Origin: a virus
Virus record (IMG/VR): IMGVR_UViG_3300046517_002304
Coordinates: 248,001 to 312,000 of that record
DNA length: 64,000 bases
Strand: one strand, 5' to 3'
Every line of letters begins with the position of its first letter. Within the stretch, counting starts at the first letter, position 1. The translations under genes and the position numbers were made by a program. Below are positions 16,230-29,528 of this stretch, one piece after another. The notes below the pieces were generated by a model. That model was not told the origin of the DNA, did not search any database, and worked only from the letters and a program-made list of their open reading frames with translations.

Positions 16230-16315
16230 GGATAACTAAGCAAGTGAGGACGCCAAAATCGTTTTGTCCCTTTCGGAAGATTGCCGATCTGGCTATGTCT
16301 CTTGCCTAGTTATCC
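16230..16315. ncRNA. 86-nt hairpin segment closed by octamer arms
   Basis: GGATAACTAaGCAAG (16230-16245) pairs with CTTGCcTAGTTATCC (16301-16315), enclosing about 55 nt. Lies between the gene ending at 16321 and the next octamer. Structure seen; RNA function inferred. Confidence 0.45.
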
Positions 16316-16320
16316 GTAGC

Positions 16321-16518
16321 TTAGTTCTGGCGATACTTCGCAATCGCCGAGGCCATCGCGTCGTCAACGGTGCTGCCAGCGGCTACTGCTTCGCGGGTTT
16401 CGCTGAAGATTTTGCTGAGGTCAAACATCATCACCTCAACGCCGTTCCCAAGGCGGCTGTAGGCGTTGTCAATGCTGTCGTCCAACTGCTTTTCGGCTTT
16501 CGTCCTACGTTTCGCCAC
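16321..16518 (-). CDS. Hypothetical 65-aa helical protein, GTG start
   Basis: GTG start with ACAGGAGAGTATC ahead. A-K-R-R-T-K-A-E-K-Q-L-D-D-S-I-D-N-A-Y then F-D-L-S-K-I-F-S-E-T-R-E-A-V, coiled-coil-like. A much longer frame reading through the octamer is rejected. Confidence 0.65.
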   Translation of the reverse strand: MAKRRTKAEKQLDDSIDNAYSRLGNGVEVMMFDLSKIFSETREAVAAGSTVDDAMASAIAKYRQN

Positions 16519-16561
16519 GATACTCTCCTGTAAGGGGTGACTGATGAGAGTTAAAGGATAA

Positions 16562-16849
16562 CTAGCCGACAGTGAACAGCGGTCGGGTGTATTCCGCCAT
16601 GACCGCCTTATCACTCTGGCGAACGATACGGGCAGCGGAAACTGTCGTCGGGCCGAGATGTTTGTTGCCGCCGGTGCGAGTTGATTCCTCAAAAGCAGCG
16701 ACGTATTTCCGCAAGTTATCCGCAGTCGGTTGACCGTCGCCAGGGACTTGCTCTTGCGGCGATTTTCGCAGTCGCCATTCGCAAGGCGTGTAGATGAAGC
16801 CGGGAACCTTAATCTCAACCGTGAAAGGAATCGCTCTTGATCGTCCCAT
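16562..16849 (-). CDS. Hypothetical 95-aa protein
   Basis: ACAGGAGATTATC before ATG. Basic N-terminus with aromatic strands, then D-N-L-R-K-Y-V-A-A-F-E-E-S-T. Stop TAG-TTATCC. Confidence 0.7.
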   Translation of the reverse strand: MGRSRAIPFTVEIKVPGFIYTPCEWRLRKSPQEQVPGDGQPTADNLRKYVAAFEESTRTGGNKHLGPTTVSAARIVRQSDKAVMAEYTRPLFTVG

Positions 16850-16884
16850 GATAATCTCCTGTTAAGACAGGGAGAAATGGATAA

Positions 16885-17094
16885 CTATTCGCTGATTGTT
16901 TGCGTGTAGGGGATTTCCCCTAATGATTGGAGAATTTCCTCCGCAAGCACATTGCCGGCGTCAGCTCTGAGTTTCAACCCGCCGGCGATCAAGGCAAGTT
17001 TTCCGAGCGACAGGCCAGTAATTTCGTAAAGGTCGTACGCTCCCTTGATTAGTCCCTTAGTTTTCGTCAGTCCTAGCTTTTGCCCTTTCTTCAT
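16885..17094 (-). CDS. Hypothetical 69-aa protein
   Basis: Lys-rich start (M-K-K-G-Q-K-L-G-L-T-K-T-K) then an amphipathic helix L-G-K-L-A-L-I-A-G-G-L-K-L. ACAGGAGATACC before ATG; stop TAG-TTATCC. Confidence 0.7.
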   Translation of the reverse strand: MKKGQKLGLTKTKGLIKGAYDLYEITGLSLGKLALIAGGLKLRADAGNVLAEEILQSLGEIPYTQTISE

Positions 17095-17173
17095 GGTATC
17101 TCCTGTGAGAGAAAATTATAAGACTGCCCGTGTTTTCGTCCGCGACAGCACCGCAATGCCGCCAACTGCCTCA

Positions 17174-17261
17174 CCGACCGTTGCCGGGTAATCCGTGGTC
17201 TAGAACACACGACGTTCTACTTCCACGGGCCAGGTTTAGGAGCCTGTTGTCTTACGGTCGG
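17174..17261 (-). ncRNA. Folded 88-nt RNA, three-way junction
   Basis: Outer stem CCGACCGT (17261-17254) with ACGGTCGG (17181-17174). Inside, hairpin CAGG/CCTG and a double stem CCGTGG-AGAAC / GTTCT-CCACGG. It follows the octamer after the gene ending at 17272 and lies in an otherwise gene-free leader. tRNA-sized but without a tRNA T-loop or anticodon arm. Confidence 0.6.
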
Positions 17262-17271
17262 ATATGGATAA

Positions 17272-17463
17272 CTAGATGATCGGCATTGAAACCGTGCTGC
17301 CCTTGATTTCCGTGTCAACGATCTTGATATGATTGTTCGGACAATCCAAAGTGAAATTGTAGTCACAATCGGTCGCTGCCATATCGCCCGCGACTTCAGG
17401 TGAAAATACGTGCGGGTGTTCAATGTCAACCGCGACGACAAAGTAAACGCGGGATTTCAGCAT
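17272..17463 (-). CDS. Hypothetical 63-aa protein
   Basis: M-L-K-S-R-V-Y-F-V-V-A-V-D-I-E-H-P-H, beta-rich with Asp/His, stop TAG-TTATCC. AAAGGAGCGTC before ATG, inside the upstream stop region. Confidence 0.65.
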   Translation of the reverse strand: MLKSRVYFVVAVDIEHPHVFSPEVAGDMAATDCDYNFTLDCPNNHIKIVDTEIKGSTVSMPII

Positions 17464-17472
17464 GACGCTCCT

Positions 17473-17850
17473 TTATTCGTTTGAGTAACTCAAATCGTCG
17501 CTTGGCTGAAGTTGATTCCAGATATGCCCGCAATTTTCGCATGATTCACCATGCAACGCGGACTCAGGAATCGGCTCTTGACAGTCGGGACATTCGCCCT
17601 TATCATATTCGTTTCGGACGAGATCAGACGGAACCCAAGTCAGACGTTTGGGGAATGGTTTTTTATCACGGAAGCAAAGGATTCGTAAATCGCCCGATGC
17701 CTGACTTTTTGCAGAGGCAAGCGTAGGTGCCCAGTCCTGCCGATTAGTCCCGACTTTGTAACTCCAAAATGGAACAATGCCAGGCGTAGCAATCGGTTGC
17801 TGCCAGATTGTGCATTCGTAGTTCAGGTGTTTGGCGGTATACTGGAGCAT
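17473..17850 (-). CDS. 125-aa protein with C-terminal zinc ribbon
   Basis: Start at M-L-Q-Y-T-A-K-H-L (17850); the upstream M-S-Y-P-L-N-R is the octamer read as codons. C-P-D-C near residue 93 and C-E-N-C near 110 form a zinc ribbon. Resembles small phage 'metal-binding' proteins; no enzyme motif. Confidence 0.65.
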   Translation of the reverse strand: MLQYTAKHLNYECTIWQQPIATPGIVPFWSYKVGTNRQDWAPTLASAKSQASGDLRILCFRDKKPFPKRLTWVPSDLVRNEYDKGECPDCQEPIPESALHGESCENCGHIWNQLQPSDDLSYSNE

Positions 17851-17860
17851 ACGATTTAAT

Positions 17861-17957
17861 GGATAACTCATCGCCGCCTAGTTATCCATATCTTAGGTAC
17901 GCAGAGAGTTTTGTTGTACTAGGATTTAACTAGTAGGTACTCTAGCTATGGATAACT
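17861..17957 (-). promoter_or_regulatory. Promoter-like inverted-repeat module 3
   Basis: Octamers at 17861, 17880 (inverted) and 17950, with long imperfect arms and a loop almost identical to module 2 (shared GTTTTGTTGTACTAGG). Placed between a terminator and the gene at 17850. Confidence 0.6.
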
Positions 17958-17974
17958 AGACCTATCAGCTAGGC

Positions 17975-18004
17975 CAAAAAAATTGGCCCGGGTTTTCCGG
18001 GCCT
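17975..18004 (-). terminator. Rho-independent terminator
   Basis: GGCCCGG-AAAA-CCGGGCC hairpin followed on minus by AATTTTTTTGG. Follows the gene ending at 18009. Confidence 0.85.
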
Positions 18005-18008
18005 TGTC

Positions 18009-18182
18009 CTATTCACCTTGCAGGTTATCCCCCTGATAAGCGGCGTAGCTCTTCTCATCGTGCCAAGTCAGCTTGACCGCACGGCAGGTCGTGAAATCGT
18101 GGTTCCAGAAAAAATCGTAATAGCGGGGGGTGAGATTTCGGTGTTCCCCGCGAGCAAATTGCTCCGCAGTGAATTCAATCAT
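18009..18182 (-). CDS. Hypothetical 57-aa protein
   Basis: M-I-E-F-T-A-E-Q-F-A-R-G-E-H-R ... F-F-W-N-H-D-F-T-T-C. Leader carries AAAAGGATAACCGGT before ATG and shares about 35 bp with the leader of 13255. Confidence 0.65.
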   Translation of the reverse strand: MIEFTAEQFARGEHRNLTPRYYDFFWNHDFTTCRAVKLTWHDEKSYAAYQGDNLQGE

Positions 18183-18237
18183 ACCGGTTATCCTTTTAAT
18201 CGGGTGAAACTTACAACCGATTACGGATAACTAGAAT

Positions 18238-18267
18238 GACCCTCCCTAGGTATCACTAGGGAGGGTC
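18238..18267 (-). terminator. Hairpin, possible terminator
   Basis: GACCCTCCCTA/TAGGGAGGGTC perfect 11-bp stem just after the gene ending at 18283. Only ATTCT follows, so termination would be weak. Confidence 0.5.
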
Positions 18268-18282
18268 GGAGGGACGAACGCA

Positions 18283-18753
18283 TCAGGCAGCGGACTTGTC
18301 GGTCTTCTTCTTCGCGGGTTTCTTCGCAGCGACGGCTTTCGTCTTCGCGGCACGCGGCTTGCGGGGTTTGGCGGGTTTCGGGGTTTCGGCGACAGGTGCC
18401 GGCGGTTCAGGGGCGAGCGGTTCAACGGTCGGGGCGTCGTCCACCACAACGGCAGGCTTTCGCTTGCGTTGACGCGGGGCGGTCGGAAGGGCGACGGATT
18501 CGCCAACGGTCGGGATGATCTTTTCGCAGTCCAGTTGCACGCGGACACAATCGGTATCGTGATAGACTTCCAGCACCTTGCACTGAATGCCCATCCAGAC
18601 AGCGGCGGCCAGGCGGAAGAGATTCAGTCGGCCCTTATGGTCGCGGGACAACTCAACGCCGGTGATCGTGGTATCCTTTCGGTCACGAAACTTCAACTGC
18701 GGTTCTACCACCACTTCGCGGGGCTTTTCCTGTTCCTCAACTTCCATACGCAT
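18283..18753 (-). CDS. 156-aa protein with histone H1-like tail
   Basis: Residues 1-85 are an ordinary alpha/beta domain (K-F-R-D-R-K-D-T-T-I-T-G-V ... V-R-V-Q-L-D-C-E-K). Residues 95-156 are Lys/Pro/Ala-rich repeats (A-K-P-R-K-P-R-A-A-K-T-K) like H1 or bacterial histone-like tails, so DNA binding is likely. AAGGAG precedes the ATG. Ends the unit at the 18238 hairpin. Confidence 0.7.
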   Translation of the reverse strand: MRMEVEEQEKPREVVVEPQLKFRDRKDTTITGVELSRDHKGRLNLFRLAAAVWMGIQCKVLEVYHDTDCVRVQLDCEKIIPTVGESVALPTAPRQRKRKPAVVVDDAPTVEPLAPEPPAPVAETPKPAKPRKPRAAKTKAVAAKKPAKKKTDKSAA

Positions 18754-18795
18754 CGCATACTCCTTAGAGAAGGGGGATTGTTGATTGTTAAGGGA

Positions 18796-18916
18796 TAACT
18801 AACGCCAGTTAGGTGCCACTTCGGTCAACTGGACTACCTCGCACTCTATAGGACTTCGCGGGTGCATGGACGGTCGCAGGCGATTTCAACAGGCCCGCGT
18901 GCGTCTCGGTTAGTTA
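18796..18916 (-). ncRNA. Folded RNA segment of about 120 nt
   Basis: Outer stem TAACTAAC/GTTAGTTA, hairpin CGCGGG/CCCGCG, hairpin CCAGTT/AACTGG. No frame. Flanked by octamers on both sides, as for the 17174 segment. Confidence 0.5.
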
Positions 18917-18933
18917 CAACAATGAATGGATAA

Positions 18934-19122
18934 CTAGAAGCTGGATTTTCGTTCGTCCTGAGGCTTCGGCGGCATCGTCAGGCCATCCTGAAAAATCGCC
19001 CGACTTCGCAGCCATTGCAGCATTCCCTTCCAGCGTTCGGGGGGGATATGGTCGGGGCAACCGAAATCGTATCTGGTACATACCAGAAACGAATCAAGGT
19101 TCATTTTGCTGCAATCAATCAT
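18934..19122 (-). CDS. Hypothetical 62-aa protein
   Basis: M-I-D-C-S-K-M-N-L-D-S-F-L-V-C-T ... W-K-G-M-L-Q-W-L-R-S-R. Stop TAG falls exactly in TAG-TTATCC, the cleanest example of the shared stop. Confidence 0.65.
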   Translation of the reverse strand: MIDCSKMNLDSFLVCTRYDFGCPDHIPPERWKGMLQWLRSRAIFQDGLTMPPKPQDERKSSF

Positions 19123-19131
19123 AATACTATC

Positions 19132-19165
19132 AAACGGATAACTTAGTTGTTAGCTAGTTATCCGT
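19132..19165 (-). promoter_or_regulatory. Compact octamer hairpin between genes
   Basis: ACGGATAACT and AGTTATCCGT form a 10-bp perfect stem with a 12-nt loop between the genes 19174 and 18934. No T-run, so not a standard terminator. Confidence 0.5.
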
Positions 19166-19173
19166 AGCTTGTG

Positions 19174-19404
19174 TCAGTTGCCGTAAGCAAGGCCCATAGC
19201 AATCAACTCTTCGGCCACGCGCCGGGAAATCCGCAGCGCTCCGACATTGCCATTACGAACAATCGTGAGCTGAGGCCGACAACCATGAAACAAGTTGATA
19301 GTTGGCCGATGATCCGCTTTGGGAAGATTTCGGACTTTGCCGTCAATGCTGCCCTTCGGGAGCAACTCAGCAGCAGAGAAATCGGGGAGTTTACTTTTCG
19401 ACAT
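19174..19404 (-). CDS. Hypothetical 76-aa protein
   Basis: M-S-K-S-K-L-P-D-F-S-A-A-E-L ... L-T-I-V-R-N-G-N-V-G-A-L-R-I-S-R-R-V-A-E-E-L, a DNA- or nucleotide-binding style alpha/beta end. Stop TGA, then the inverted octamer hairpin. Confidence 0.65.
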   Translation of the reverse strand: MSKSKLPDFSAAELLPKGSIDGKVRNLPKADHRPTINLFHGCRPQLTIVRNGNVGALRISRRVAEELIAMGLAYGN

Positions 19405-19413
19405 TTTGACCTT

Positions 19414-19698
19414 TCATTCGTAAGATGGAATCTCTTCGTCAATCAGATAATTGCGGCAAAGTTTCAAGGCGTCAATCGCGTTGTCCCGTTCGTTTCGCCA
19501 GAATTTGAGGACTTGCCGCTTGGCATTCTCTGCCGTCAAAAACCAGTAGCCAGTGCCGGCACCCTCTGCATGAGCTATCTGGCCGTTGTCAAAAACTACA
19601 ATCTCTTGATCGTCGTCAATGAGAATGTCTTTATAACAGAGGCCGATGGCACAGCAGTTTTGTTCAACCCATCCGTATACTCGGACTTGCTTGCTCAT
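19414..19698 (-). CDS. Hypothetical 94-aa protein
   Basis: M-S-K-Q-V-R-V-Y-G-W-V ... L-I-D-D-D-Q-E-I-V-V-F-D-N-G-Q then helix N-A-K-R-Q-V-L-K-F-W-R-N-E-R-D-N-A-I-D-A-L. Not recognised. Confidence 0.65.
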   Translation of the reverse strand: MSKQVRVYGWVEQNCCAIGLCYKDILIDDDQEIVVFDNGQIAHAEGAGTGYWFLTAENAKRQVLKFWRNERDNAIDALKLCRNYLIDEEIPSYE

Positions 19699-19705
19699 AA
19701 TGATT

Positions 19706-19737
19706 GCTAATGGATAACTAGTTGCCCGCTAGTTATC
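19706..19737 (-). promoter_or_regulatory. Perfect 12-bp octamer hairpin
   Basis: ATGGATAACTAG-7 nt-CTAGTTATCCAT between the genes 19750 and 19414. Tightest of the inverted octamer pairs. Confidence 0.5.
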
Positions 19738-19749
19738 CATAGCTAGGTT

Positions 19750-19971
19750 TCAATGGATGTGAGTCTGGGACTTAAGTATGATGTCCTGATTTTCCTGTGC
19801 GGTCGCAACGCCCGTCAGAAGTCGGGTAGTGTAGATGACGACGTATCGCGGTTCGCCAGTCATACTATCGTGAGGCAGGTCAATCACTTGCATGCTTTCG
19901 CCAGGGTCAAGATTGCCAAGCAACTCAACCATTGCGTCGTGATTCCGACAGTGATAAACGGCGACAAGCAT
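19750..19971 (-). CDS. Hypothetical 73-aa protein
   Basis: M-L-V-A-V-Y-H-C-R-N-H-D-A-M-V-E-L-L ... R-Y-V-V-I-Y-T-T-R. AAAGGATAACTCACA before ATG, placing the ribosome site within an octamer just after tRNA processing. Confidence 0.65.
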   Translation of the reverse strand: MLVAVYHCRNHDAMVELLGNLDPGESMQVIDLPHDSMTGEPRYVVIYTTRLLTGVATAQENQDIILKSQTHIH

Positions 19972-19995
19972 TGTGAGTTATCCTTTACTAAAATT

Positions 19996-20068
19996 GGGGA
20001 TGCTAGGACTCGAACCTAGGACCAAAAAATTATGAGTTTTCTGCTCTGACCAACTGAGCTACACCCCC
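19996..20068 (-). tRNA. tRNA with CAT anticodon (Met or lysidine-Ile)
   Basis: Full cloverleaf on the minus strand: acceptor GGGGGTG/CATCCCC, D arm GCTC..GAGC, anticodon loop CTCATAA, T arm CTAGG-TTCGAGT-CCTAG. No CCA encoded. Elongator Met or Ile2 cannot be separated by eye. Confidence 0.92.
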
Positions 20069-20074
20069 GGTGAT

Positions 20075-20533
20075 TTACGCCGCTCCCGCGACCTTACCCC
20101 GACACTCGGGACCGAAACCTGATTCAATACTCTCGGGAACCGTCAACGTCTTGAGGCAACGCCCGCACCTGCCAGCGTTATGCAACTTGAAACCAGCCGC
20201 CTCAATCGCAGCCGTATCGCCCGCCCATACGCGAGCCAGCACGCGATTAATCAATTTGAACGTCATTGAATCCTTTGTGAATTTTGACAGCTTCGTAATC
20301 GTGACTTCGCCGGTGAAAGCATTGACCTTGCCTACGTCGCTGTAATCCCGTATATTTTCGGGACCAGTCAACTTGCCGACCCACCAAGCCTCCGGAAATT
20401 CTGCCGTTGCTTCCGAATAGTTCACGCGATACGTATAATGAGGCTTGCAGCCGTGTTTCGCCGCGAATTCAGCGGGCAACTCAAGAGTAAAAATTGCCTT
20501 GCCAGCGAGGACGAATTCTTTTGTAATCATCAT
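20075..20533 (-). CDS. 152-aa protein with DUF6011-like Cys motif
   Basis: C-terminal R-C-G-R-C-L-K-T-L-T-V-P-E-S-I-E-S-G-F-G-P-E-C matches the short metal-binding motif of many phage proteins (C-G-R-C-x-R-x-L-x-x-x-x-S-x-x-x-G-x-G-P-x-C). N-terminal 100 residues are beta-rich with a possible DNA- or RNA-binding role. Lies 6 nt after the tRNA. Confidence 0.75.
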   Translation of the reverse strand: MMITKEFVLAGKAIFTLELPAEFAAKHGCKPHYTYRVNYSEATAEFPEAWWVGKLTGPENIRDYSDVGKVNAFTGEVTITKLSKFTKDSMTFKLINRVLARVWAGDTAAIEAAGFKLHNAGRCGRCLKTLTVPESIESGFGPECRGKVAGAA

Positions 20534-20577
20534 ACACTCCTGTTTTATAATTGACAGAAGGGTAGGGATAACTAAAA

Positions 20578-20627
20578 GACTCTACGCGGCAGTAGTTCCC
20601 ATGGGCGGGCCTTACCGCGTCAGAGTC
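20578..20627 (-). ncRNA. Stem-loop RNA, possible terminator
   Basis: GACTCT-CGCGG / CCGCG-AGAGTC stem on minus followed by TTTTAG and the octamer. Lies between the genes 20635 and 20533. Confidence 0.5.
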
Positions 20628-20634
20628 CAAAACA

Positions 20635-21027
20635 TCACGCAACCGACGACGACCGCAACCGAGCGACTTCGTTGACGTAGGCAGCGGCTTCCGTATCAAC
20701 CGAAAGATACTCCAGAATTTTCTTGTTGACGATGAACGGAGCAACTCCGACGAATTCCCCGACGTATCCCCGAATCGCCGTGCTATACTTTCCGCAGAGC
20801 GAAAGGGCAACGTGATTGAAGGGGGAAACCTTGCGGTTGAGGATGACTTCATCATCCGACCGCCCGCCGAATCCCAAGGCGCGGGCCTCATTCGCCCGAT
20901 TCTGTTTGTCCTTCAGCAAGTCCAGACGAACCTGAGCCATTGCGACATTCGCCGCTGCCTTTGACTGCTGTTTGGCCGACTTCGGCTGAGTCATGCGAAT
21001 ATGAAGCGTCTTTTCGGTCTTCGCCAT
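20635..21027 (-). CDS. Hypothetical 130-aa protein
   Basis: Basic helical N-terminus (R-M-T-Q-P-K-S-A-K-Q-Q-S-K-A-A), middle P-F-N-H-V-A-L-S-L-C-G-K-Y-S-T-A-I-R-G-Y-V-G-E-F. AGGAGTAGAAGTT before ATG. Not recognised. Confidence 0.7.
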   Translation of the reverse strand: MAKTEKTLHIRMTQPKSAKQQSKAAANVAMAQVRLDLLKDKQNRANEARALGFGGRSDDEVILNRKVSPFNHVALSLCGKYSTAIRGYVGEFVGVAPFIVNKKILEYLSVDTEAAAYVNEVARLRSSSVA

Positions 21028-21097
21028 AACTTCTACTCCTGTTTAAGAATTGCCTTGACGAATGAGAATGGATAACTACACTAGCGAAAGTTATCCA

Positions 21098-21334
21098 CTA
21101 TTTCGGCGGTCCCTGATTTTTTACTTCGTCCTGCCACGTTGCTTGCTGCCATTCGTGGCTGAAATCTTCGCAAGCCGCTTCCATCTCGGTGATGACTTCG
21201 CGGCAGGCATCGGTCACACTTACGGCAGCGGCACTATCACGATACCGCTCTTGAATCAATTTTCCCAAAGCACGGCGGGTCACATTGCCGCGATTAAATC
21301 TGAGAATGAGAGCCTCAAGAAATTCATCCATCAT
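21098..21334 (-). CDS. Hypothetical 78-aa protein
   Basis: Helical, M-M-D-E-F-L-E-A-L-I-L-R-F-N-R-G-N-V-T-R-R-A-L-G-K-L-I, DNA-binding style first helices. ATGA overlap upstream. Confidence 0.65.
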   Translation of the reverse strand: MMDEFLEALILRFNRGNVTRRALGKLIQERYRDSAAAVSVTDACREVITEMEAACEDFSHEWQQATWQDEVKNQGPPK

Positions 21335-21618
21335 ACCCCCTCTACGGATAACTCAGGTTTTTTGAATTTTACCAACTCGGGAAACAACTCAGTCGCTTGT
21401 GTCGGTTGGCCGAATTTGACCGCTCGTAAAATTGCTCTTGACGGCGGGCCAGTCCATCGCCTCCAATGTGATTTGTCGATACGGTTTAACTCAACCGCCC
21501 GTACCCATTGCCCGCCGATCTTAACCGCTCCATCGTATGAACCGACAAAGCTATAATAATTGGCGTCAGAATTCCGTATGCTTCTGGAAATCGTCTTGCC
21601 TAGGTCGTAGTTGGGCAT
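21331..21618 (-). CDS. Hypothetical 95-aa protein
   Basis: Start M-P-N-Y-D-L-G-K-T-I-S (21618), after the octamer. N-Y-Y-S-F-V-G-S-Y-D-G-A-V-K-I-G-G-Q-W-V-R-A-V-E-L-N-R is beta-rich. Not recognised. Confidence 0.65.
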   Translation of the reverse strand: MPNYDLGKTISRSIRNSDANYYSFVGSYDGAVKIGGQWVRAVELNRIDKSHWRRWTGPPSRAILRAVKFGQPTQATELFPELVKFKKPELSVEGV

Positions 21619-21635
21619 GGAGTTTAAGGGATAAC

Positions 21636-22217
21636 TCAGTGTCTCTTTGCCTTGGCACGAAGATAGGCGTCTTCCCACGCATACGCCTCTTCTGCCGTGA
21701 CCGTGCCGCCGATTGCATTGAACATTGCATTCAGCTTGCGATTGTATTCAGCAGCATGCCGACGAACAACGGCAGGATTTGCCTCACCGTCGCAATGCAG
21801 AGTCTCGGGTTCAAGTGCCGCATAGCAAGCAACGATTGCCGCCATGATAGCCTTATCAATATTGGATTGCAGAATCGGATGGAAAACCGAATTTGCTGGT
21901 TGAACGCGACCGACCCCGAGCAACTTCATTGCGTCAACCGTCGCAACGTCAGCGGCGGTCAGCGTCACCTTTTCGCGGGGAGTTTCGGTCTTCTGCGAAG
22001 TAACCCGAGCAACGTCTGCCTCTGTTGCGGGAGTAAGCATTTCATAAGGGACAACCCAAATTGACCCTACTTCGCTGCCACGCCCGTACCCGCGTTGCTC
22101 CAATATGCGAACTTTCGCTTTGACGCGGTTACGCTTGAAAATTTTAGCGATAGTCCTTTGACCATTTTCGCGGCCAAAGCTCACCGGCATTCCGTCGTAT
22201 GCTTGTTCGTAATTCAT
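21636..22217 (-). CDS. Hypothetical 193-aa protein with SH3-like start
   Basis: Start M-N-Y-E-Q-A-Y-D-G-M-P-V-S-F (22217). Residues 8-55 look like an SH3 barrel (G-M-P-V-S-F-G-R ... R-V-K-A-K-V-R-I-L); the rest is helical. Not recognised. Confidence 0.65.
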   Translation of the reverse strand: MNYEQAYDGMPVSFGRENGQRTIAKIFKRNRVKAKVRILEQRGYGRGSEVGSIWVVPYEMLTPATEADVARVTSQKTETPREKVTLTAADVATVDAMKLLGVGRVQPANSVFHPILQSNIDKAIMAAIVACYAALEPETLHCDGEANPAVVRRHAAEYNRKLNAMFNAIGGTVTAEEAYAWEDAYLRAKAKRH

Positions 22218-22227
22218 ATTTGCCAAT

Positions 22228-22324
22228 GGATAACTCATCGCCGCCTAGTTATCCATATCTTAGGTACGTAGCAGATATTGTTGTACTAGGATTTTCTAAT
22301 GTTGTACTCTAGTTATGGATAACT
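22228..22324 (-). promoter_or_regulatory. Promoter-like inverted-repeat module 4
   Basis: Octamers at 22228, 22247 (inverted) and a degenerate right arm at 22317; loop shares TTGTTGTACTAGGATTT with modules 2 and 3. Between a terminator and the gene at 22217. Confidence 0.6.
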
Positions 22325-22340
22325 GGCCAGGACTACAGGC

Positions 22341-22369
22341 CAAAAAATTAGCCCCCGTTTAGCCGGGGG
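22341..22369 (-). terminator. Rho-independent terminator
   Basis: CCCCCGG/CGGGGGC hairpin followed on minus by TAATTTTTTGG. Confidence 0.85.
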
Positions 22370-22421
22370 AACGCTGACGCTCATTAGCCGCGAGCGACGA
22401 CAGCAAGGTGTAAGGGATAAC

Positions 22422-22789: not shown

Positions 22790-23451
22790 TTTTCACCACC
22801 TACAAGAGACAGCAGCAATTCGGCGACGGCATTGTTTGTGAAGCGGGTAAGTTTCAAGTCCCTGATCGTGTTGACTCGGGGCTGGCAGTATTCGGCGAAC
22901 GCGGCGGAAATTTCCACAAGCTGATGATTGACTTCAACCAGATTCAACAGGTCGCGGTCAATCGCCTTGATGTATTCCTCTTTCTCGGTGAGTTGCTTCA
23001 CCACTTCAGCAAAAATGCCGTTGTAGCTTCGCCAATCGGGATTGTCCCAATCCTTAGACAAGTAGGTAGAAAGCCTATCGTCGCAACCGATGACCGCCTC
23101 ACGCAAGTAATACTGAGGACCGTCGCCCTTGCTTCGCTCAATCTGTTTGAGCATTTTATTCGACAGCAATTCGGCGGGATAGTAAACTTCACCGCCCCAA
23201 ATTTTGACGCGGACGTTGTAGTTCTCATTCTCCAGAATGACGCTCCACCCCTTGGCGAATGGGTTGTCTGATTTCGCCAAATCGGCCTTGAATTCGCGGA
23301 CCAGCACGTTATCCACACGAACACGATGCTTGATACGGTTCAGGGTGCCGATGAGAATCCCGAGGAGGAAACTTTCAACCTCTGCCACGAGGCGAGCACG
23401 GCGAAGATTCTTTTCGGCTGCAATCGTTTGCGGGAGCGGTGCGAATTCCAT
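22786..23451 (-). CDS. Hypothetical 221-aa protein
   Basis: Helical ends flank a beta segment (G-W-S-V-I-L-E-N-E-N-Y-N-V-R-V-K-I-W-G-G-E-V-Y-Y). CAGGAGTATCCC before ATG. One of the longer genes here; no domain recognised. A chance DnaA-box-like TTATCCACA occurs inside it. Confidence 0.7.
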   Translation of the reverse strand: MEFAPLPQTIAAEKNLRRARLVAEVESFLLGILIGTLNRIKHRVRVDNVLVREFKADLAKSDNPFAKGWSVILENENYNVRVKIWGGEVYYPAELLSNKMLKQIERSKGDGPQYYLREAVIGCDDRLSTYLSKDWDNPDWRSYNGIFAEVVKQLTEKEEYIKAIDRDLLNLVEVNHQLVEISAAFAEYCQPRVNTIRDLKLTRFTNNAVAELLLSLVGGEK

Positions 23452-23491
23452 GGGATACTCCTGAGTAATGTTGACGAAAGTTAAAGGATAA

Positions 23492-23764
23492 CTATTCGCT
23501 CACGTAGACTTTGCCGTGAGCGATGTAGTCCAGTGCCGTCGCCCAATCGCATCGCGGCTCTTCGCAAATGATCGTTGTCTTGCCGTCAAACGTGACCCCG
23601 ACAGAAATCAGTCTATCAGGATTTGTCGGAAGGGCCAGCAGAGTAATATTACGCTGCCGCCACTTGTTGACGGTGGCTCCGATGAGCGGAAGCTGTACGA
23701 TTTCTTCCATGCTCAACGTGGTATTGTTATGAATCTGCATAACGGCCTGATTGTTTGTTTTCAT
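23492..23764 (-). CDS. Hypothetical 90-aa protein
   Basis: Start placed at M-K-T-N-N-Q-A-V-M (23764); an ATG four codons upstream is possible. Helix-turn (L-S-M-E-E-I-V-Q-L-P-L-I-G-A-T-V-N-K-W) may bind DNA. Stop TAG-TTATCC. Confidence 0.6.
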   Translation of the reverse strand: MKTNNQAVMQIHNNTTLSMEEIVQLPLIGATVNKWRQRNITLLALPTNPDRLISVGVTFDGKTTIICEEPRCDWATALDYIAHGKVYVSE

Positions 23765-23785
23765 AATGAGCATCAAGGGATAACT

Positions 23786-23858
23786 GAAAAATTGGCGGGC
23801 CAGCTTGCGTTCAGTATTATCGGGCGTTCCCTAACCTACTAGCAAGCCGTTCCCCGCC
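23786..23858 (-). ncRNA. Stem-loop RNA or terminator
   Basis: GGCGGG-GGCTTGC / GCAAGC-CCCGCC double stem on minus, then AATTTTTC. Lies between module 5 and the gene at 23764, so it may attenuate the operon. Confidence 0.5.
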
Positions 23859-23872
23859 GTGAGATCAGTAAT

Positions 23873-23940
23873 GGATAACTAGCTGGCCTCATAGTTATCC
23901 ATATCTTAGGTACAGAGCAATTTTTAATTCTTATAATGAA
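23873..23940 (-). promoter_or_regulatory. Promoter-like module 5
   Basis: GGATAACT at 23873 and inverted AGTTATCCATATCTTAGGTAC-type arm at 23893; the far arm is missing. Next to the terminator at 23941. Confidence 0.5.
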
Positions 23941-23977
23941 ATAAAAAAACGCCAGCGGGTGATTCCCGCCAGCGTTA
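23941..23977 (-). terminator. Rho-independent terminator
   Basis: AACGCTGGCGGG/CCCGCTGGCGTT-type stem followed on minus by TTTTTTTATTTC. Confidence 0.85.
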
Positions 23978-24197
23978 TCAAATTCTAGCCCTCAAGGTTC
24001 TAACCTATCTAAACAAACCCCGATGTATAGTATGGCAGGCCGCTCTGCCGGCGCGACGGCACTAGGGAGAATGATGATTGATCTATGCTACATAGTAGGC
24101 TCCGGGCTAGTGGAGCAAAGCATAGCAAAATCAGCAGTGGAAGAAAAATAAACATAATGATTCCGAGGTTTTTGGCAGTTGCACACTATACTAAAGC
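23978..24197. other. Gene-poor segment upstream of the HNH gene
   Basis: About 220 bp with no clear minus gene. On plus, AGGGAG precedes ATGATG at 24071 and a 26-codon frame, too short to trust. Probably DNA that arrived with the HNH gene. Confidence 0.35.
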
Positions 24198-24677
24198 ATG
24201 CAAAAGTTTAACTGCGGGACTTGTGGAAAAGAAGTTTATCGACCGACTTGGAGAATCAAAAAATGTTTAACTGGCATTTTTTACTGTAGCCAGAAATGTT
24301 GCTGTGATGCTAATAACAAAAAAAAGGCGGATCAGGTTAGTGGTATGAGAAAAGGCGAAGTACTAAACCACTGTTCCACGTCCAGTAGGTTCGCAACGAT
24401 ACGGAAAAATGCTAGGCGAACATACCTTGCGTCAGACAAACCTAAGTGCTGCCTAGTATGCGGGTATTCTAAGCATATTGAAATTTGCCATGTTCAGGGG
24501 ATTACAACATTCCCCGATGAGACGAAGTTAATCGTTATCAACGATCTGACAAATCTCGTTGCTTTATGTCCGACCCATCATTGGGAGTTAGACAATAAGC
24601 AGCTTGACGAAGAAATACTCCCGGAAAGATTCGCACTTTCGACCCCCGGGTTAGAAACCCGATGCTCTATCTGCTGA
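24198..24677 (+). CDS. HNH homing endonuclease-like protein
   Basis: 159 aa, on the opposite strand to its neighbours. Cys pairs at C6/C9 and C30/C34, then C85-x2-C88, H98, N119 and C124-P-x-H127-H128, the zinc-binding HNH layout of free-standing phage homing nucleases. No Shine-Dalgarno. Residues from about 140 are the antisense of tRNA-Arg, so the native protein was probably shorter before fusing into the tRNA region. Mobile gene; its likely cut site is nearby. Confidence 0.8.
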   Translation: MQKFNCGTCGKEVYRPTWRIKKCLTGIFYCSQKCCCDANNKKKADQVSGMRKGEVLNHCSTSSRFATIRKNARRTYLASDKPKCCLVCGYSKHIEICHVQGITTFPDETKLIVINDLTNLVALCPTHHWELDNKQLDEEILPERFALSTPGLETRCSIC

Positions 24678-24688
24678 GCTACGAGAGC
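24616..24688 (-). tRNA. tRNA-Arg (TCT)
   Basis: Acceptor GCTCTCG/CGGGAGT with A discriminator, D arm GCTC..GAGC, anticodon loop TTTCTAA, T stem GAAAG/CTTTC. The T loop is TGCGAAT instead of TTCGAAT, which breaks the usual T54-psi55. First pair is G-T. No CCA encoded. Reads AGA. Confidence 0.8.
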
Positions 24689-24702
24689 AACTGACAGACA
24701 AC

Positions 24703-24734
24703 AATGGATAACTCAGGAGTTCCTGAGTTATCCT
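24703..24734 (-). promoter_or_regulatory. Octamer hairpin after gene 24745
   Basis: GGATAACTCAGG and CCTGAGTTATCC form a 12-bp perfect stem with a 4-nt loop, just before the tRNA-Arg. Confidence 0.5.
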
Positions 24735-24744
24735 TACCTGAAAT

Positions 24745-24957
24745 TCAAGCGACAACTTTTCCGTGTCTGATCCAGTCCAGTTCGCCACCGAAACACGATA
24801 CGGATGAACCGTCAGGAAAAGCCACTAAGTAATGAGCACGATTTGACATCATTTTCTTGCTCTTCACGCGACCAACCTTGTTGGTTCGCTCATAGAGCAC
24901 CGGGTCACCGACATTATGCTCGGGAACGAATTCCGCACGATAGCCAACAGACTTCAT
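24745..24957 (-). CDS. 70-aa SH3-like protein
   Basis: Start M-K-S-V-G-Y-R-A-E-F-V (24957), ACAGGAGCAACG ahead. V-G-D-P-V-L-Y-E-R-T-N-K-V-G-R-V-K-S ... F-P-D-G-S is a KOW/SH3 pattern. Confidence 0.65.
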   Translation of the reverse strand: MKSVGYRAEFVPEHNVGDPVLYERTNKVGRVKSKKMMSNRAHYLVAFPDGSSVSCFGGELDWIRHGKVVA

Positions 24958-25006
24958 AATCGTTGCTCCTGTAGAGTTGTGGACTTGATGCCTGTTAAGG
25001 GATAAC

Positions 25007-25270
25007 TCAGGATTCGGTGGAATGAACAATCAGGATATAGCTCTGACTCTCTTCCGGCGATGAACCAGCAACGTAAAATTGCCCGTCCATCAGGCAGTCC
25101 TCAAATTCGTCGGGAGTCATCACGTTTTCAATGCCGGGGGACGATTCTTTCGCCCACTTCAGGAATAGCTCTTCCGCTTGGCTATTCCCATCCTTATCGT
25201 CGGGGAAGGATGCCAGCTTGTCTACAACTGACTTATCGCTCACCCAAATCACGTTGACGGTTTTAAGCAC
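25007..25270 (-). CDS. Hypothetical 87-aa protein, GTG start
   Basis: GTG at 25270 with TTTTGGAG ahead. L-K-T-V-N-V-I-W-V-S-D-K-S-V then an acidic helix. Stop TGA-GTTATCC. Confidence 0.6.
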   Translation of the reverse strand: MLKTVNVIWVSDKSVVDKLASFPDDKDGNSQAEELFLKWAKESSPGIENVMTPDEFEDCLMDGQFYVAGSSPEESQSYILIVHSTES

Positions 25271-25394
25271 GGCAATTACTCCAAAAGAAAAGACCACCCG
25301 CCACTCCCTGTAAACTCACAATGAGCACCTGAGGGTTTAGGCAGAATGGGTCGTATTATATGGACCGCTTAGCATGCAAGGTTAAGGGATAACT
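25271..25394. other. Gene-free leader with TATAAT box
   Basis: Minus strand CCATATAATACG about 60 nt before the gene start at 25270 may be a -10 element; no convincing -35 at 17 bp. Otherwise nothing seen. Confidence 0.35.
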
Positions 25395-25682
25395 GTGTCC
25401 GCTGGTTTTATCTCTTGCTTTCATCGCAACGGGGATACGTTATCCAATAGCGTTGCAGTCATTACGACAAGCCTATTATCCAACTGTCATCACAATTTAG
25501 CAAGGCTCCAACCTTGGATTTAGCCATCGGCACCTACGACGATGGACTTACAGGACTCCAACTGCCTCTAGATTTCACCCGCTCCGCGAGAGCTATTCGG
25601 ATTCACTGGCTCTAGACGCCCAATGTTAAAGCCGCTTCATCGCATTGCGATACCTCACGACTTCAACACTGTATCATGGATA
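25395..25682 (-). ncRNA. Large multi-hairpin non-coding segment (about 290 nt)
   Basis: No frame. Successive perfect stems: GCAACG/CGTTGC enclosing GGATA/TATCC, CAAGG/CCTTG, CCATCG/CGATGG, GCTC/GAGC inside TCTAGA/TCTAGA, ATCGCA/TGCGAT. Octamers bound it on both sides. I do not recognise tmRNA, RNase P or a group I core. Confidence 0.55.
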
Positions 25683-25683
25683 A

Positions 25684-25827
25684 CTACTTGCGCTTCCGGC
25701 GACCGACGTTCAACAGCGTGCGGTCCTCAAATCCGAGTTTCACGCCATGAACGCGACACACCTGAGCCACCGCTTGAATGAGCTGACGGCCCTGTTCCGA
25801 TTTTGTCGGCTTGCAACTTTTCGCCAT
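25684..25827 (-). CDS. Hypothetical 47-aa basic protein
   Basis: M-A-K-S-C-K-P-T-K-S-E-Q-G-R-Q-L-I-Q-A-V ... N-V-G-R-R-K-R-K. Stop TAG-TTATCC. Confidence 0.65.
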   Translation of the reverse strand: MAKSCKPTKSEQGRQLIQAVAQVCRVHGVKLGFEDRTLLNVGRRKRK

Positions 25828-25878
25828 GACTCTATTCTCCAGAATGGAAATTGATTTGTCTGATTGACAATGGATAAC

Positions 25879-26148
25879 TCAGCCGCGATTGTCCTCTTGC
25901 CCCTCAACCAACATTGCGGGGACAGTGATGCGACCAGTCAGCATGCCCATCATCGCCCGCCGTGGTGCCGCATAGGTTTCGTAATCAATGCTCAACGCTG
26001 GCGTAGCGACTACCAGATCGGTGCGAGTGACGTAGAAGTATTTCGGGTATTTCAGAGGATTGAAATTGAAGAACGTCTGAAATTGTTCAAGCGTGCGGCT
26101 GGCGTTGCGGTAAACGTAGCCAGAGGCTCTGAGTACTTCAGGATTCAT
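25879..26148 (-). CDS. Hypothetical 89-aa protein
   Basis: L-E-Q-F-Q-T-F-F-N-F-N-P-L-K-Y-P-K-Y-F-Y-V-T-R-T-D-L. Stop TGA-GTTATCC. AAAGGAACCG ahead of ATG. Confidence 0.65.
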   Translation of the reverse strand: MNPEVLRASGYVYRNASRTLEQFQTFFNFNPLKYPKYFYVTRTDLVVATPALSIDYETYAAPRRAMMGMLTGRITVPAMLVEGQEDNRG

Positions 26149-26178
26149 AATCGGTTCCTTTAATTACTAAAGGATAAC

Positions 26179-26442
26179 TCAGCCGCGAAGATACAGCCGT
26201 TCACCCTTCACGATGACGTAGCAACTGCCGGCGTTGCTGTAGCAGATACAGTAAACGCGATACAGCTTCGTATCGCCGTTGAAGCGGAGCATTTTGTCAG
26301 TGCTGATTTTGCTACCGTAGCCGTCTTCCCCTTGCCCTGGGGCTAACTGAAGCATACCACGGCGAGGAACAGGCCGCTCAATCAACTCATAGTTGTCGGC
26401 GTATGTAATCGCCGGGCCACAAGATCCAGAGAGGATAGACAT
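26179..26442 (-). CDS. Hypothetical 87-aa protein
   Basis: C-terminal R-V-Y-C-I-C-Y-S-N-A-G-S-C-Y-V-I-V-K-G-E-R-L-Y-L is beta-rich with three Cys. CCGGAGTATTCA before ATG. Stop TGA-GTTATCC. Confidence 0.65.
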   Translation of the reverse strand: MSILSGSCGPAITYADNYELIERPVPRRGMLQLAPGQGEDGYGSKISTDKMLRFNGDTKLYRVYCICYSNAGSCYVIVKGERLYLRG

Positions 26443-26525
26443 TGAATACTCCGGTGATTTGTAAGGGGGATTTACATCATGGCGACTGTCGAACCCGCCG
26501 CGATAACCCCCAGATGCAGGACGAT

Positions 26526-26650
26526 GGATAACTAGCTGCCCCCATAGTTATCCATAGCTAAGGTACGGACTATCATTTAGATTCCCCTGCTAGTTATCCA
26601 TAGCTAAGGTACGGAACAATACTAGGATGCCCCCGTTAGTTATCCATAGC
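26526..26650 (-). promoter_or_regulatory. Module 6: three tandem 46-bp repeats with octamers
   Basis: Inverted octamers at 26546, 26592 and 26638, each followed by ATAGCT(A/T)AGGT(A/C)CGG, at exact 46-bp steps, plus one GGATAACT at 26526. Reads as a tandem operator/promoter array between the terminator 26684 and the gene at 26442. Confidence 0.6.
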
Positions 26651-26683
26651 TTAGGTCCGGCCGAACATAGCTGGGGCCAGTCG

Positions 26684-26721
26684 AAATAAAAAATGCCCCT
26701 CAGCCAATCAAGGCTGAGGGG
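26684..26721 (-). terminator. Rho-independent terminator
   Basis: CCCCTCAGCC/GGCTGAGGGG perfect stem, then CATTTTTTATTTC on minus. Ends the helicase operon. Confidence 0.9.
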
Positions 26722-26801
26722 ACTAACTAAGGCGGGACATTATGCCCGCAATCGTGGAGGTCCGCCAATCAGGCGGGCCAGTTGAGTCTAACTATGGATA
26801 A

Positions 26802-27590
26802 CTATTCGTCGCTCTCTTCCCATTCTTCATCCCGAGCAACTTCAGCCGTTGCCGTGCTCCGCCCCGGTGCCGCTGTCTTTTCTACCGTAATATAATTCAG
26901 GACACGCATAGACCGCGTATCGCGGACATACTCTAGGTTTCGCTCCTGTTGTAATTCGTGCGGTAGCTTGGCGTATGACGACGGGTAGAGGGAGGGGTCC
27001 AATACCCAAACGGTTTCGGCCTCCAATCCCTTAGCTTTATGCGTCGTCGTCAACAATACCGCGTGCTTTACGTCGCCGGCGTCATTGACTTCCGCGAAGA
27101 TACTGCTAATTAATTCCTTCAACGCTTTCGCAGTATCGGTCCCCTCAGTCAGAGCGATGAGAGTATCGCATTTATCATTAAGAGTTTCCGCCGCACGACC
27201 CGCATTTTTCCGCTTTTCCAGTTTCGTCAACTCCCGACCGCGATATGTTTCAATCCGTTCAATGAGAGTCGGGATATCGTCGGTCTTCATCCGATCAATC
27301 AGATTGATGAGGCCCTCCCCAAAATCGTTGCGGCCTGCAATCTGGACTTTGAGATGACGCCTCAGAAGTTTCCAGACAAGCGTTGCAAGGGGAGCATTGT
27401 TCCGACATTGAACCATATCCCCTGGGGCAATCAAATCAATCGCCGCTGCCAGAGGCATCGTATTGACTTCCCCCTGAGGGGCTGATGCCATTGCTTCAAA
27501 GGCAGGAACGAACGCCTGAGCAATTTCAACGTGCGACTTCGGGCACCGTCGCGTCTTCGTCAGCGTCAAGAGAGTCAAGCCGCGAGACAT
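26802..27590 (-). CDS. UvrD-like helicase, C-terminal half (motifs IV-VI)
   Basis: 262 aa. T-R-R-C-P-K-S-H near residue 13 is motif IV; C-R-N-N-A-P-L, then T-T-H-K-A-K-G-L-E-A-E-T-V-W (motif V) and Q-Q-E-R-N-L-E-Y-V-R-D-T-R (motif VI) follow, as in superfamily 1A helicases. ATP site residues of motifs I-III are on the separate upstream gene 27640-28605, so the two must assemble. AAAGGATAAC before ATG pairs with the octamer of the upstream gene. Confidence 0.85.
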   Translation of the reverse strand: MSRGLTLLTLTKTRRCPKSHVEIAQAFVPAFEAMASAPQGEVNTMPLAAAIDLIAPGDMVQCRNNAPLATLVWKLLRRHLKVQIAGRNDFGEGLINLIDRMKTDDIPTLIERIETYRGRELTKLEKRKNAGRAAETLNDKCDTLIALTEGTDTAKALKELISSIFAEVNDAGDVKHAVLLTTTHKAKGLEAETVWVLDPSLYPSSYAKLPHELQQERNLEYVRDTRSMRVLNYITVEKTAAPGRSTATAEVARDEEWEESDE

Positions 27591-27639
27591 ACTTGTTATC
27601 CTTTAAAAGTGTGCGGAGTTGATGGAAGTTAAAGGATAA
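27591..27639 (-). promoter_or_regulatory. 49-nt linker with 12-bp inverted repeat inside the split helicase
   Basis: GTTATCCTTTAA and TTAAAGGATAAC face each other across 25 nt. The right arm contains the second gene's AAAGGA ribosome site, so the hairpin would hide it. Protein on either side continues without loss. Confidence 0.6.
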
Positions 27640-28605
27640 CTAGGCGGATAGACGACGCTCAAACAATTGCATAGAATCTTCCGCTGCTCCGCAAAAGCCG
27701 TAGATAGCCTGATTCTCATCGCCCACCGCGATAATCCTGCCATTCTTGCCCGCGACCGTGAACGCCATTTCAATTCGGCACATATTCAGGTCTTGAACTT
27801 CGTCAACCAGCACGTTATCATAAGTCGGCAACGTAATCTTATTGACAATCGGAATCCAAATTTGATCGTCAAAATCAAATTCCCGCGTATTCTTGCGTGC
27901 GGCATCCAAAACCTTTGGAACCAATTCAAAAATCCGCTCTACTTCGTCGCCAATTTCAACGCTATGATATTCGCAGAGTTGCGTCAGATTTTCGGTTGTC
28001 GGTGCCAGCAATTTGTTTTTGCAGAGGGAAACCAACTTGACGACCGCATACTTGATACGGTTTTTATCGTTGTCGTCCATCCCCTCAGGGAGCATTGCAT
28101 CAACGCAATTATGCGTTTTGTATTCCTTCAATTCGGCACCCTTATAGAATGCCCGAATTGCACTCCAGCCGAAAGCATGGAACGTGCTAGTGGCCGTTCC
28201 CTCAGGCATGCGTGCTTTCAACTCTCGGGCGATTTTGTTATTAAACGCCAGAGCGATGACGCTACCAGTGAGGCGGGCGGCACCCATGACAATCGTTGTC
28301 GTCTTGCCCGTTCCCGCCAGTGCTTTGATAATCAGGTGGGAAGTCCCATTCTCCATTTCTTCCCATATCGCAATCTGCTGATCCGACCCCTTAAAGGTGG
28401 GGAGAGGAATTTTCGTAATCACCTCCTTAACATACTTGGCTTTCTGAGTATGTTTGCACTGGACTTCACCGGCGGCCTTATCAAACCCCTCAGGATTACG
28501 GGCCGACTTTTCATAGTAGCCCGGGCAACCATAAAACTTGCCGAAACTACTTTTCCGAGCAACCAGCGTTTTGTCGCACTTAGGGCAGAAATATTCGCTC
28601 ATCAT
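27640..28605 (-). CDS. UvrD-like helicase, N-terminal half with topoisomerase-type zinc finger
   Basis: 321 aa. C7/C10/C27/C50 form a zinc finger like those at topoisomerase I C-termini. Then Q76, Walker A G98-T-G-K-T102, Walker B D268-E-V-Q-D, motif III V294-G-D-E-N-Q-A-I-Y-G-F. It stops 17 residues later at F-E-R-R-L-S-A with TAG-TTATCC. Normal relatives continue straight into motif IV, found on the next gene. DNA unwinding for phage replication or repair is expected of the pair. Confidence 0.85.
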   Translation of the reverse strand: MMSEYFCPKCDKTLVARKSSFGKFYGCPGYYEKSARNPEGFDKAAGEVQCKHTQKAKYVKEVITKIPLPTFKGSDQQIAIWEEMENGTSHLIIKALAGTGKTTTIVMGAARLTGSVIALAFNNKIARELKARMPEGTATSTFHAFGWSAIRAFYKGAELKEYKTHNCVDAMLPEGMDDNDKNRIKYAVVKLVSLCKNKLLAPTTENLTQLCEYHSVEIGDEVERIFELVPKVLDAARKNTREFDFDDQIWIPIVNKITLPTYDNVLVDEVQDLNMCRIEMAFTVAGKNGRIIAVGDENQAIYGFCGAAEDSMQLFERRLSA

Positions 28606-28639
28606 AATCTTTCAGCAAGGGAATTCAAATCCAGTTGCC

Positions 28640-28750
28640 GTATTGTGGATAACTATTGCTACCCAATGGCAATTCCGTATCTCGTATCTTAGATACGGAT
28701 AACTATGGGGGAGAGGCGTTCTAACTCTACGCTTTGCCTCTCCCCCGTTT
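28640..28750 (-). promoter_or_regulatory. Module 7 with preceding hairpin
   Basis: CCGTATCT/AGATACGG inverted repeat with octamers at 28647 and 28697, preceded on minus by an 11-bp GGGGGAGAGGC/GCCTCTCCCCC hairpin (28706-28745) without a T-run. Same order as modules 1-6, before the helicase operon. Confidence 0.5.
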
Positions 28751-28754
28751 TGCG

Positions 28755-29000
28755 TCGGCCTCCGCACATTAGGCAGGGATAACTCCCCGACCTGTAACGT
28801 GGCATAAGCGACCCTCCGAGGTGTTACGTCGTAATGAGCGACATCCTACCGGCGTCCACTTATGCCGTGTCTGAATTTTTAGGATTGTTGTAATGCCTCT
28901 TATTCTCCTGCAAGTCAAATGAAGCGACCTCAGTCAAGAATATTTAGCTTGTAATGGTCGCATAGGCCAAGCCACAGCTTCCATAGACTTACAACAATTC
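28755..29000. ncRNA. Gene-free folded segment (about 240 nt)
   Basis: Stems GGCATAAG (28801) / CTTATGCC (28859) and TTGTTGTAA (28885) / TTACAACAA (28989), the latter enclosing GCGACC (28924) / GGTCGC (28956). No frame. Strand uncertain; neighbours are minus. Confidence 0.5.
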
Positions 29001-29233
29001 TAGGAATTCAGCAAATCCGCAATTTCTTGATTACGGATAACTACTGGTTTCGTGATATCGATGTTGAGGGCGGCTCTTGCCCCTTCCAAGTCACCCTCTT
29101 CTAGATAAAACGTGTCGGCGGCATCAGACAAACCGATATCGACTAGCTGATTAACCAGCTCAGCAACCCGCTTCTTACTCATACGAACGGGAGCGTCAAC
29201 CTTAACCAGCAGATTCACCGTTCGTTTTTTCAT
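29000..29233 (-). CDS. Family B paralogue (77 aa) with octamer read through
   Basis: M-K-K-R-T-V-N-L-L-V-K-V-D-A ... K-R-V-A-E-L-V-N-Q-L-V-D-I-G-L-S. The family-B-sized part would end near residue 62; the octamer TAGTTATCCGTAATCAAGA is then read as V-V-I-R-N-Q-E to a later stop. A C-terminal extension by stop loss is likely. Confidence 0.65.
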   Translation of the reverse strand: MKKRTVNLLVKVDAPVRMSKKRVAELVNQLVDIGLSDAADTFYLEEGDLEGARAALNIDITKPVVIRNQEIADLLNS

Positions 29234-29277
29234 GGTTTTCCTGATGGAGTTCGTTTTTTCATGGTTTTCCTGATGGA
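29220..29277. repeat. Tandem 29-bp duplication of a start region
   Basis: 29220-29248 and 29249-29277 are identical and each carries the ribosome site, ATG and first codons of gene 29000. The extra copy makes a 10-codon leader whose TGA overlaps the real ATG. Confidence 0.85.
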
Positions 29278-29290
29278 TCAGGGATAACTA

Positions 29291-29390
29291 AGAGAGATGC
29301 CCTATTCGCTTGCTACGTCTTCGGGCTACGATTTTTACTGAAGAGTTCTGCTCTTCGCGGCAAGATTCGTCGGATACGCCTATCTCTCGA
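29291..29390. ncRNA. Folded segment of about 100 nt
   Basis: GAGAGAT/ATCTCTC closing stem with inner GAAGAG/CTCTTC hairpin; octamers on both sides; no frame. Confidence 0.5.
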
Positions 29391-29402
29391 GGAACAATGG
29401 AT

Positions 29403-29528
29403 AACTAATTTGTTCTAGCCGTTATTCAGATTCCCGATTTTCACCGAAAGCCCGCTGATCGGGCGAGCCAAATCCTAGAGCTGGAGGCTTTCGCCCCACG
29501 GTCTCCTAACGACCAGAACGAATTAGTT
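29403..29528. ncRNA. Folded cloverleaf-like segment of about 125 nt
   Basis: Closing stem AACTAATTtGTTCT (29403) / AGAACgAATTAGTT (29515), inner CGTT/AACG, then CGAAAGCC/GGCTTTCG enclosing GCCCG/CGGGC. Octamers flank it. No frame. Confidence 0.6.

Follow-up and report, generated by a model that had tools for sequence, protein, structure and literature searches.

Introduction

The nearest described layout to the one reported here is that of the SAS and ESAS elements of cluster K mycobacteriophages, SAS being a 13-mer, GGGATAGGAGCCC, with partial potential to pair with 16S rRNA (PMC3203893, PMC12699233). We analyzed a 64,000-nucleotide (nt) stretch of a virus genome (hereafter the window; bases 248001 to 312000 of the 511,233-base record IMGVR_UViG_3300046517_002304; positions are those of the window unless marked as genome) in which an octamer, AGTTATCC, is probably a promoter that heads most small genes, and in which several octamer-bounded units devoid of reading frames plausibly represent small RNAs. 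Like SAS and ESAS, the octamer is a short asymmetric word located before start codons, mostly in one orientation and mostly outside structural genes (PMC3203893, PMC12699233). The word of this phage does not match the SAS consensus of PMC12699233, and it mostly lies at least 10 nt before the ATG instead of close to it. A subset of the mycobacteriophage elements carries an extra imperfect inverted repeat upstream, paralleled here by four convergent octamer repeats with a 61- to 62-nt spacer, and for both kinds of element the function is unproven. Unlike SAS, the octamer is an invariant 8-mer present in more than 180 copies, contributes part of the stop codon upstream of it, comes after terminators and heads non-coding units, and the word differs in a related phage.

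The virus is a huge bacterial virus of the T4 type. T4 late promoters have an octamer core, TATAAATA, with no −35 element, and are read by gp55. The element described here likewise consists of a single octamer core without a −35 element, and the phage has a gp55-like sigma factor and, outside the octamer array, TAAATA-type words; the octamer differs from T4 late promoters in its word and in the set of genes that it precedes.

Among structured RNAs, some GOLLD and ROOL RNAs are associated with phages. The units of this phage share with these ornate RNAs (PMC12286853) that they are structured and non-coding, but they are shorter and have no Rfam match. The nearest described RNAs are RNAC and RNAD of T4, small phage RNAs whose function is reported as unknown (PMC9697503). 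The putative RNAs reported here would similarly be small RNAs of the phage program, but there are several of them, each is bounded by octamers, and none matches an Rfam family. Finally, the stoperators of cluster A mycobacteriophages are, like the octamer, asymmetric sites repeated across a phage genome, and they are repressor sites that stop elongation (PMC9283540); in contrast, the fixed ATG spacing and stop-codon overlap of the octamer point to unit starts.

Results

The octamer reads AGTTATCC on the minus strand and GGATAACT on the plus strand. The window contains 114 copies on the minus strand, where about 2 would be expected (observed/expected ratio of 69 in a second-order Markov model), versus 19 on the plus strand. 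Genome-wide there are 162 and 23 copies by strand; nearly all of them lie in a stretch of about 150 kb (genome 259.6 to 409 kb), the remaining genome being almost free of them, and their orientation follows the direction of transcription. Alignment of the 114 sites gave the extended consensus TAGTTATCCNT(A/T)A, with almost no conservation upstream and no −35 element at the standard spacing. Allowing at most one mismatch, TAGTTATCCNT has 134 matches compared with 3.4 ± 2.0 in shuffled sequences; the core is nearly invariant, and the one-mismatch matches vary almost solely outside it. The octamers form an array at 11674 to 63573 (minus strand), heading units of protein genes and of putative RNAs. 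Genes outside the octamer region instead have TAAATA-type words upstream and may constitute late genes that the gp55-like sigma factor recognizes.

The position of the octamer relative to genes is constrained on both sides. It overlaps the stop codon of an upstream open reading frame (ORF) of at least 40 residues by 1 to 2 nt in 66 of 113 cases (1.1 expected), and an ATG follows exactly 10 nt downstream in 36 of 113. Shine-Dalgarno-like sequences precede only 3 of the 40 starts located within 12 nt of an octamer, versus 26 of the 36 starts at least 20 nt away. Strong intrinsic terminators, identified by a scan restricted to hairpin loops of 3 to 8 nt, lead straight into octamers, for example at 18238 to 18267 and at 29554 to 29584 (minus strand), where a 13-bp stem and a T-run join the octamer at 29539 to 29546. 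The octamer is best read as a promoter because terminator hairpins lead directly into several copies: a unit directly behind a terminator needs a promoter of its own, and this is our main argument. Thus, the unit at 29407 to 29538 begins directly behind the strong terminator 29554 to 29584 and its octamer, which leaves that octamer as the only plausible promoter. The exact 10-nt spacing of 36 ATGs is no more than compatible with a transcription start at a fixed distance downstream.

The octamer also occurs in inverted pairs, in 10 cases with a spacer of 11 to 12 nt (19 to 20 bp apart), and the four convergent pairs with the 61- to 62-nt spacer adjoin such inverted pairs. The element at 12802 to 12897, which precedes a new operon, combines an inverted pair (spacer of 11) with a convergent inverted repeat, and octamer positions define similar elements at 15356 to 15453, 17861 to 17957 and 22228 to 22324. 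Inverted pairs are also found at 23873 to 23912 and 26526 to 26660, the latter including a tandem triplet at 26546 to 26660. Longer inverted repeats associated with octamer pairs, AGTTATCCATATCTTAGGTAC, are located behind terminators at operon starts.

Eight octamer-to-octamer intervals, all considered on the minus strand, are non-coding according to an ORF listing combined with codon-score gene calls. Their folding was scored as z values against dinucleotide-preserving shuffles, and closure, i.e., pairing of the 5′ part with the 3′ end, was compared with shuffles (p values uncorrected across nine tests). As a set, the eight units fold better on the octamer strand than 60 length-matched coding pieces (mean z of −2.2 versus −0.5; Mann-Whitney p = 0.0019). 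Their folding is also stronger on that strand than on its complement (paired p = 0.02). Five of them, with z values below −2.5, are individually above chance and have convincing folds. The 87-nt unit at 23786 to 23872 has no ORF and forms a rod-like hairpin closed by GGCGGG/CCCGCC (z −4.1; closing stem p = 0.007); it is preceded by a terminator (23948 to 23976) and an inverted octamer pair, and its tail, AATTTTTC, leads into the next octamer. The 283-nt unit at 25395 to 25677, whose best ORF has 20 residues and a negative coding score, forms several hairpins, among them an 11-bp stem, TGTTGAAGTCG/CGGCTTTAACA (z −2.7 on the minus and −0.4 on the plus strand). At 28705 to 28776, a 72-nt unit carries a hairpin, GGGGGAGAGGC/GCCTCTCCCCC, that finishes flush with the octamer (z −3.5 minus, −3.3 plus; 3′ arm closure p = 0.007). 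The 250-nt unit at 28785 to 29034 (z −3.6 minus, −3.9 plus) can be read as two domains, CTGAATT..TTGTTGTAA/TTACAACAA..AATTCAG and GGCATAAG/CTTATGCC, with a possible pseudoknot, and shares its first 35 nt with the last codons of gene 29000 to 29233. The 132-nt unit at 29407 to 29538 has a long closing stem and inner hairpins (z −2.9; closure p = 0.02). In the units at 25395 and 28785, which are built of successive domains, closure of the 5′ to the 3′ end is not above shuffles.

The other three units comprise 29290 to 29398 (109 nt, no ORF), with an AGAGAT/ATCTCT closure between both octamers (z −0.8; closure p = 0.03); 16134 to 16229 (96 nt, no ORF), which is weakly structured (z −1.6; closure p = 0.07); and 18801 to 18927 (127 nt, no credible ORF), whose folding is not above chance (z +0.9; closure p = 0.34). 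A further candidate, 12673 to 12801, was rejected as a non-coding unit because an ORF crosses the octamer.

A first-pass annotation had described nine segments as frameless, folded, flanked by the octamer and made as separate units. The octamer does bound six of them on both sides, and these six (18801, 23786, 25395, 28705, 29290 and 29407) are non-coding from octamer to octamer; all but 18801 have some folding support. Their description as separate units is well supported by the position of octamers at the unit joints and by terminators leading into them. Two non-coding units had escaped that list, 16134 to 16229 and 28785 to 29034, the latter among the best supported. The remaining three flagged segments belong to neighboring genes. 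Thus, 16238 to 16320 (minus strand; z −2.5), the interval from the stop codon of gene 16321 to 16518 (at 16321) to the octamer, is a structured 3′ region with a closing stem flush with the octamer and no separate unit, and 17095 to 17265 (minus strand; z −1.1) is the moderately structured 171-nt leader from the octamer to gene 16885 to 17094, both assignments following the gene calls. The 61-nt segment 20574 to 20634 (minus strand; z −4.3), which immediately follows the stop codon of gene 20635 to 21027, is a GC-rich, terminator-like hairpin with the CTTTT tail of an intrinsic terminator, the tail sequence GAGTCTTTT leading into the octamer; it was not listed by the loop-restricted terminator scan.

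These three segments raise the question of whether all folded segments are untranslated parts of neighboring transcripts (terminators, 3′ stabilizers or leaders) rather than independent small RNAs, as ordinary genes too have strong hairpins abutting octamers (18238 to 18267 and 29554 to 29584). We consider this rather unlikely, since six flagged segments and the two extra units are frameless with octamers on both sides, and the 132-, 250- and 283-nt units are much larger and more branched than terminators. An interpretation as phage small RNAs is plausible for about seven segments, two of them absent from the first-pass list, but not for the three that are parts of neighboring transcripts or for the one that is unstructured.

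Two sigma factors are encoded by the phage, a gp55-like late sigma factor (156 residues, phrog_234; at genome 95.5 kb) and another, hereafter the second sigma factor (215 residues, phrog_351; at genome 457.5 to 458 kb), which makes the phage T4-type in its transcription genes; a search for a multi-subunit RNA polymerase gave no match. The terminases of this phage and of LR756511.1, an uncultured phage of 595 kb, are 43% identical, and no named phage is close by terminase comparison. The layout of LR756511 is the same with another word: AGCTGTAC is overrepresented in its GC-rich first 50 kb, with 55 copies on the plus and 33 on the minus strand that track gene direction. A stop codon of the upstream ORF lies within 2 nt of the word in 15 of 54 cases, a T-rich end precedes it in 13 of 54 (versus 3% of random positions), and many downstream genes have an AAGGAG-type Shine-Dalgarno sequence behind it. 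The word-bounded units include a tRNA-Leu gene and contain folded non-coding segments (e.g., 3415 to 3632, 7821 to 8118 and 10290 to 10397), which fold better than the phage's own coding pieces with p = 0.018, an optimistic value because the segments were chosen after the fold results had been seen. Some proteins match between the octamer region and the word region of LR756511, but no RNAs do. LR756511 also encodes a homologue of the second sigma factor (34% identity). Its GC content is 50% in the first 20 kb versus about 42% elsewhere; a tmRNA-like 3′ half (L044, 2250 to 2386) scored 50.4 in one scan and 15.4 on a shorter stretch and was not relied on. No comparable repeated word was found in three terminase relatives (G001 to G003, with G002 covered in part), six LR756508 pieces or 50 kb of Phosso; a repeated word in G001 was rejected because it belongs to a tandem repeat within gene-like sequence.

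Searches for relatives of the RNAs gave negative results. With Rfam covariance models at gathering and permissive thresholds, only tRNAs reached threshold in the window and the best non-tRNA matches in 12000 to 30200 were at chance level, so the Rfam comparison suggested by the first-pass annotation assigned no segment to a family. DNA-pattern searches of viral and bacterial collections for relatives sharing the octamer returned isolated chance matches only. The segments showed no paralogy among themselves, and comparing them with the remainder of the phage and with the parts of LR756511 that were examined revealed neither similarity nor long complementarity. An identical fragment, L042, showed no sequence variation.

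The window has a GC content of 44.5%, versus 37 to 41% across the rest of the genome. At 4166 to 11074, about 25 minus-strand ORFs of 80 to 106 residues each follow one another head to tail, their ends overlapping slightly; they are octamer-free between neighbors and possibly form a repeated gene family. At 26802 to 28605, a UvrD-like helicase is split into two ORFs (N-terminal part, 27640 to 28605; C-terminal part, 26802 to 27590), each headed by its own octamer. A plus-strand ORF for an HNH endonuclease (24198 to 24677), probably a mobile element, lies within a long, otherwise non-coding octamer interval adjoining a tRNA-Arg gene. Lastly, a 348-residue ORF at 49797 to 50843 has a weak N-terminal methylation (pilin-type) motif.

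Discussion

The explanation that we consider reasonably probable is that the octamer heads short leftward units, about seven of which, being frameless, yield putative structured small RNAs. The sequence TAGTTATCCNT(A/T)A would be a strict, phage-specific promoter core for many short leftward units in an accessory region, most of which would give rise to one or a few small proteins. In one class of protein units, the ATG located 10 nt behind the octamer without a Shine-Dalgarno sequence would probably yield near-leaderless mRNAs; the other class would have a 25- to 45-nt leader carrying a Shine-Dalgarno sequence. The frameless units would produce structured RNAs of about 70 to 280 nt, several of them with a stem or terminator hairpin at the end, directly adjoining the next octamer. 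Transcription would be started at the octamer by a phage sigma factor; the second sigma factor is our guess for this reader because it is present in both phages. Likewise, a role of the RNAs in host takeover is a guess that we base on the location of the units among small accessory genes.

Several observations weigh against this explanation. Ordinary promoters vary far more than the octamer does. Region 4 of sigma factors normally reads the −35 element; the candidate sigma has a region 4, yet no −35 element is seen. Of the eight units, those at 16134, 18801 and 29290 do not individually fold clearly above chance, those at 28705 and 28785 fold equally well on the plus strand, and the 3′ end of several putative RNA units is without a proper T-run. 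Moreover, no homologues of the RNA segments were found in viral or bacterial genome collections.

The extreme invariance of the octamer, together with the fixed 10-nt ATG spacing of 36 units in which the Shine-Dalgarno sequence is lacking, would also fit an RNA processing or translation signal. Long leftward transcripts would then be cut at the octamer, with RNAs released between cuts, or ribosomes would use it, much as a role in translation initiation has been proposed for the SAS of cluster K mycobacteriophages (PMC3203893). We find this improbable: if the octamer were not a promoter, units located directly behind strong terminators would be silenced, and the octamer also heads frameless units as well as genes that have an ordinary leader with a Shine-Dalgarno sequence. 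A stoperator-like site for a phage repressor or elongation blocker, with the segments being decayed genes that fold incidentally, would account for the one-way orientation at short intergenic joints, for the 10 inverted pairs, which suggest a dimeric binder, and for the unstructured 18801 to 18927, but it is quite improbable given that the shuffles preserved dinucleotide composition, that the segments match nothing else in the phage or in the examined LR756511 parts, and that tight ATG spacing is unexpected for a repressor site.

If the promoter explanation is extended to both phages, a broader picture may be proposed tentatively. In a T4-type lineage of huge phages, accessory cassettes might be controlled by an invariant eight-letter promoter read by a sigma factor, with a word that varies by phage (AGTTATCC or AGCTGTAC), and might deliver fast-changing, unrelated structured RNAs along with small proteins for host takeover. 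To our knowledge, few phages are known with several structured RNAs other than tRNAs. Should the RNAs be real, the octamer would offer a straightforward guide to RNAs of this kind in huge phages that have not been cultured, and the fact that two related phages use different words would make the recognizing factor testable.

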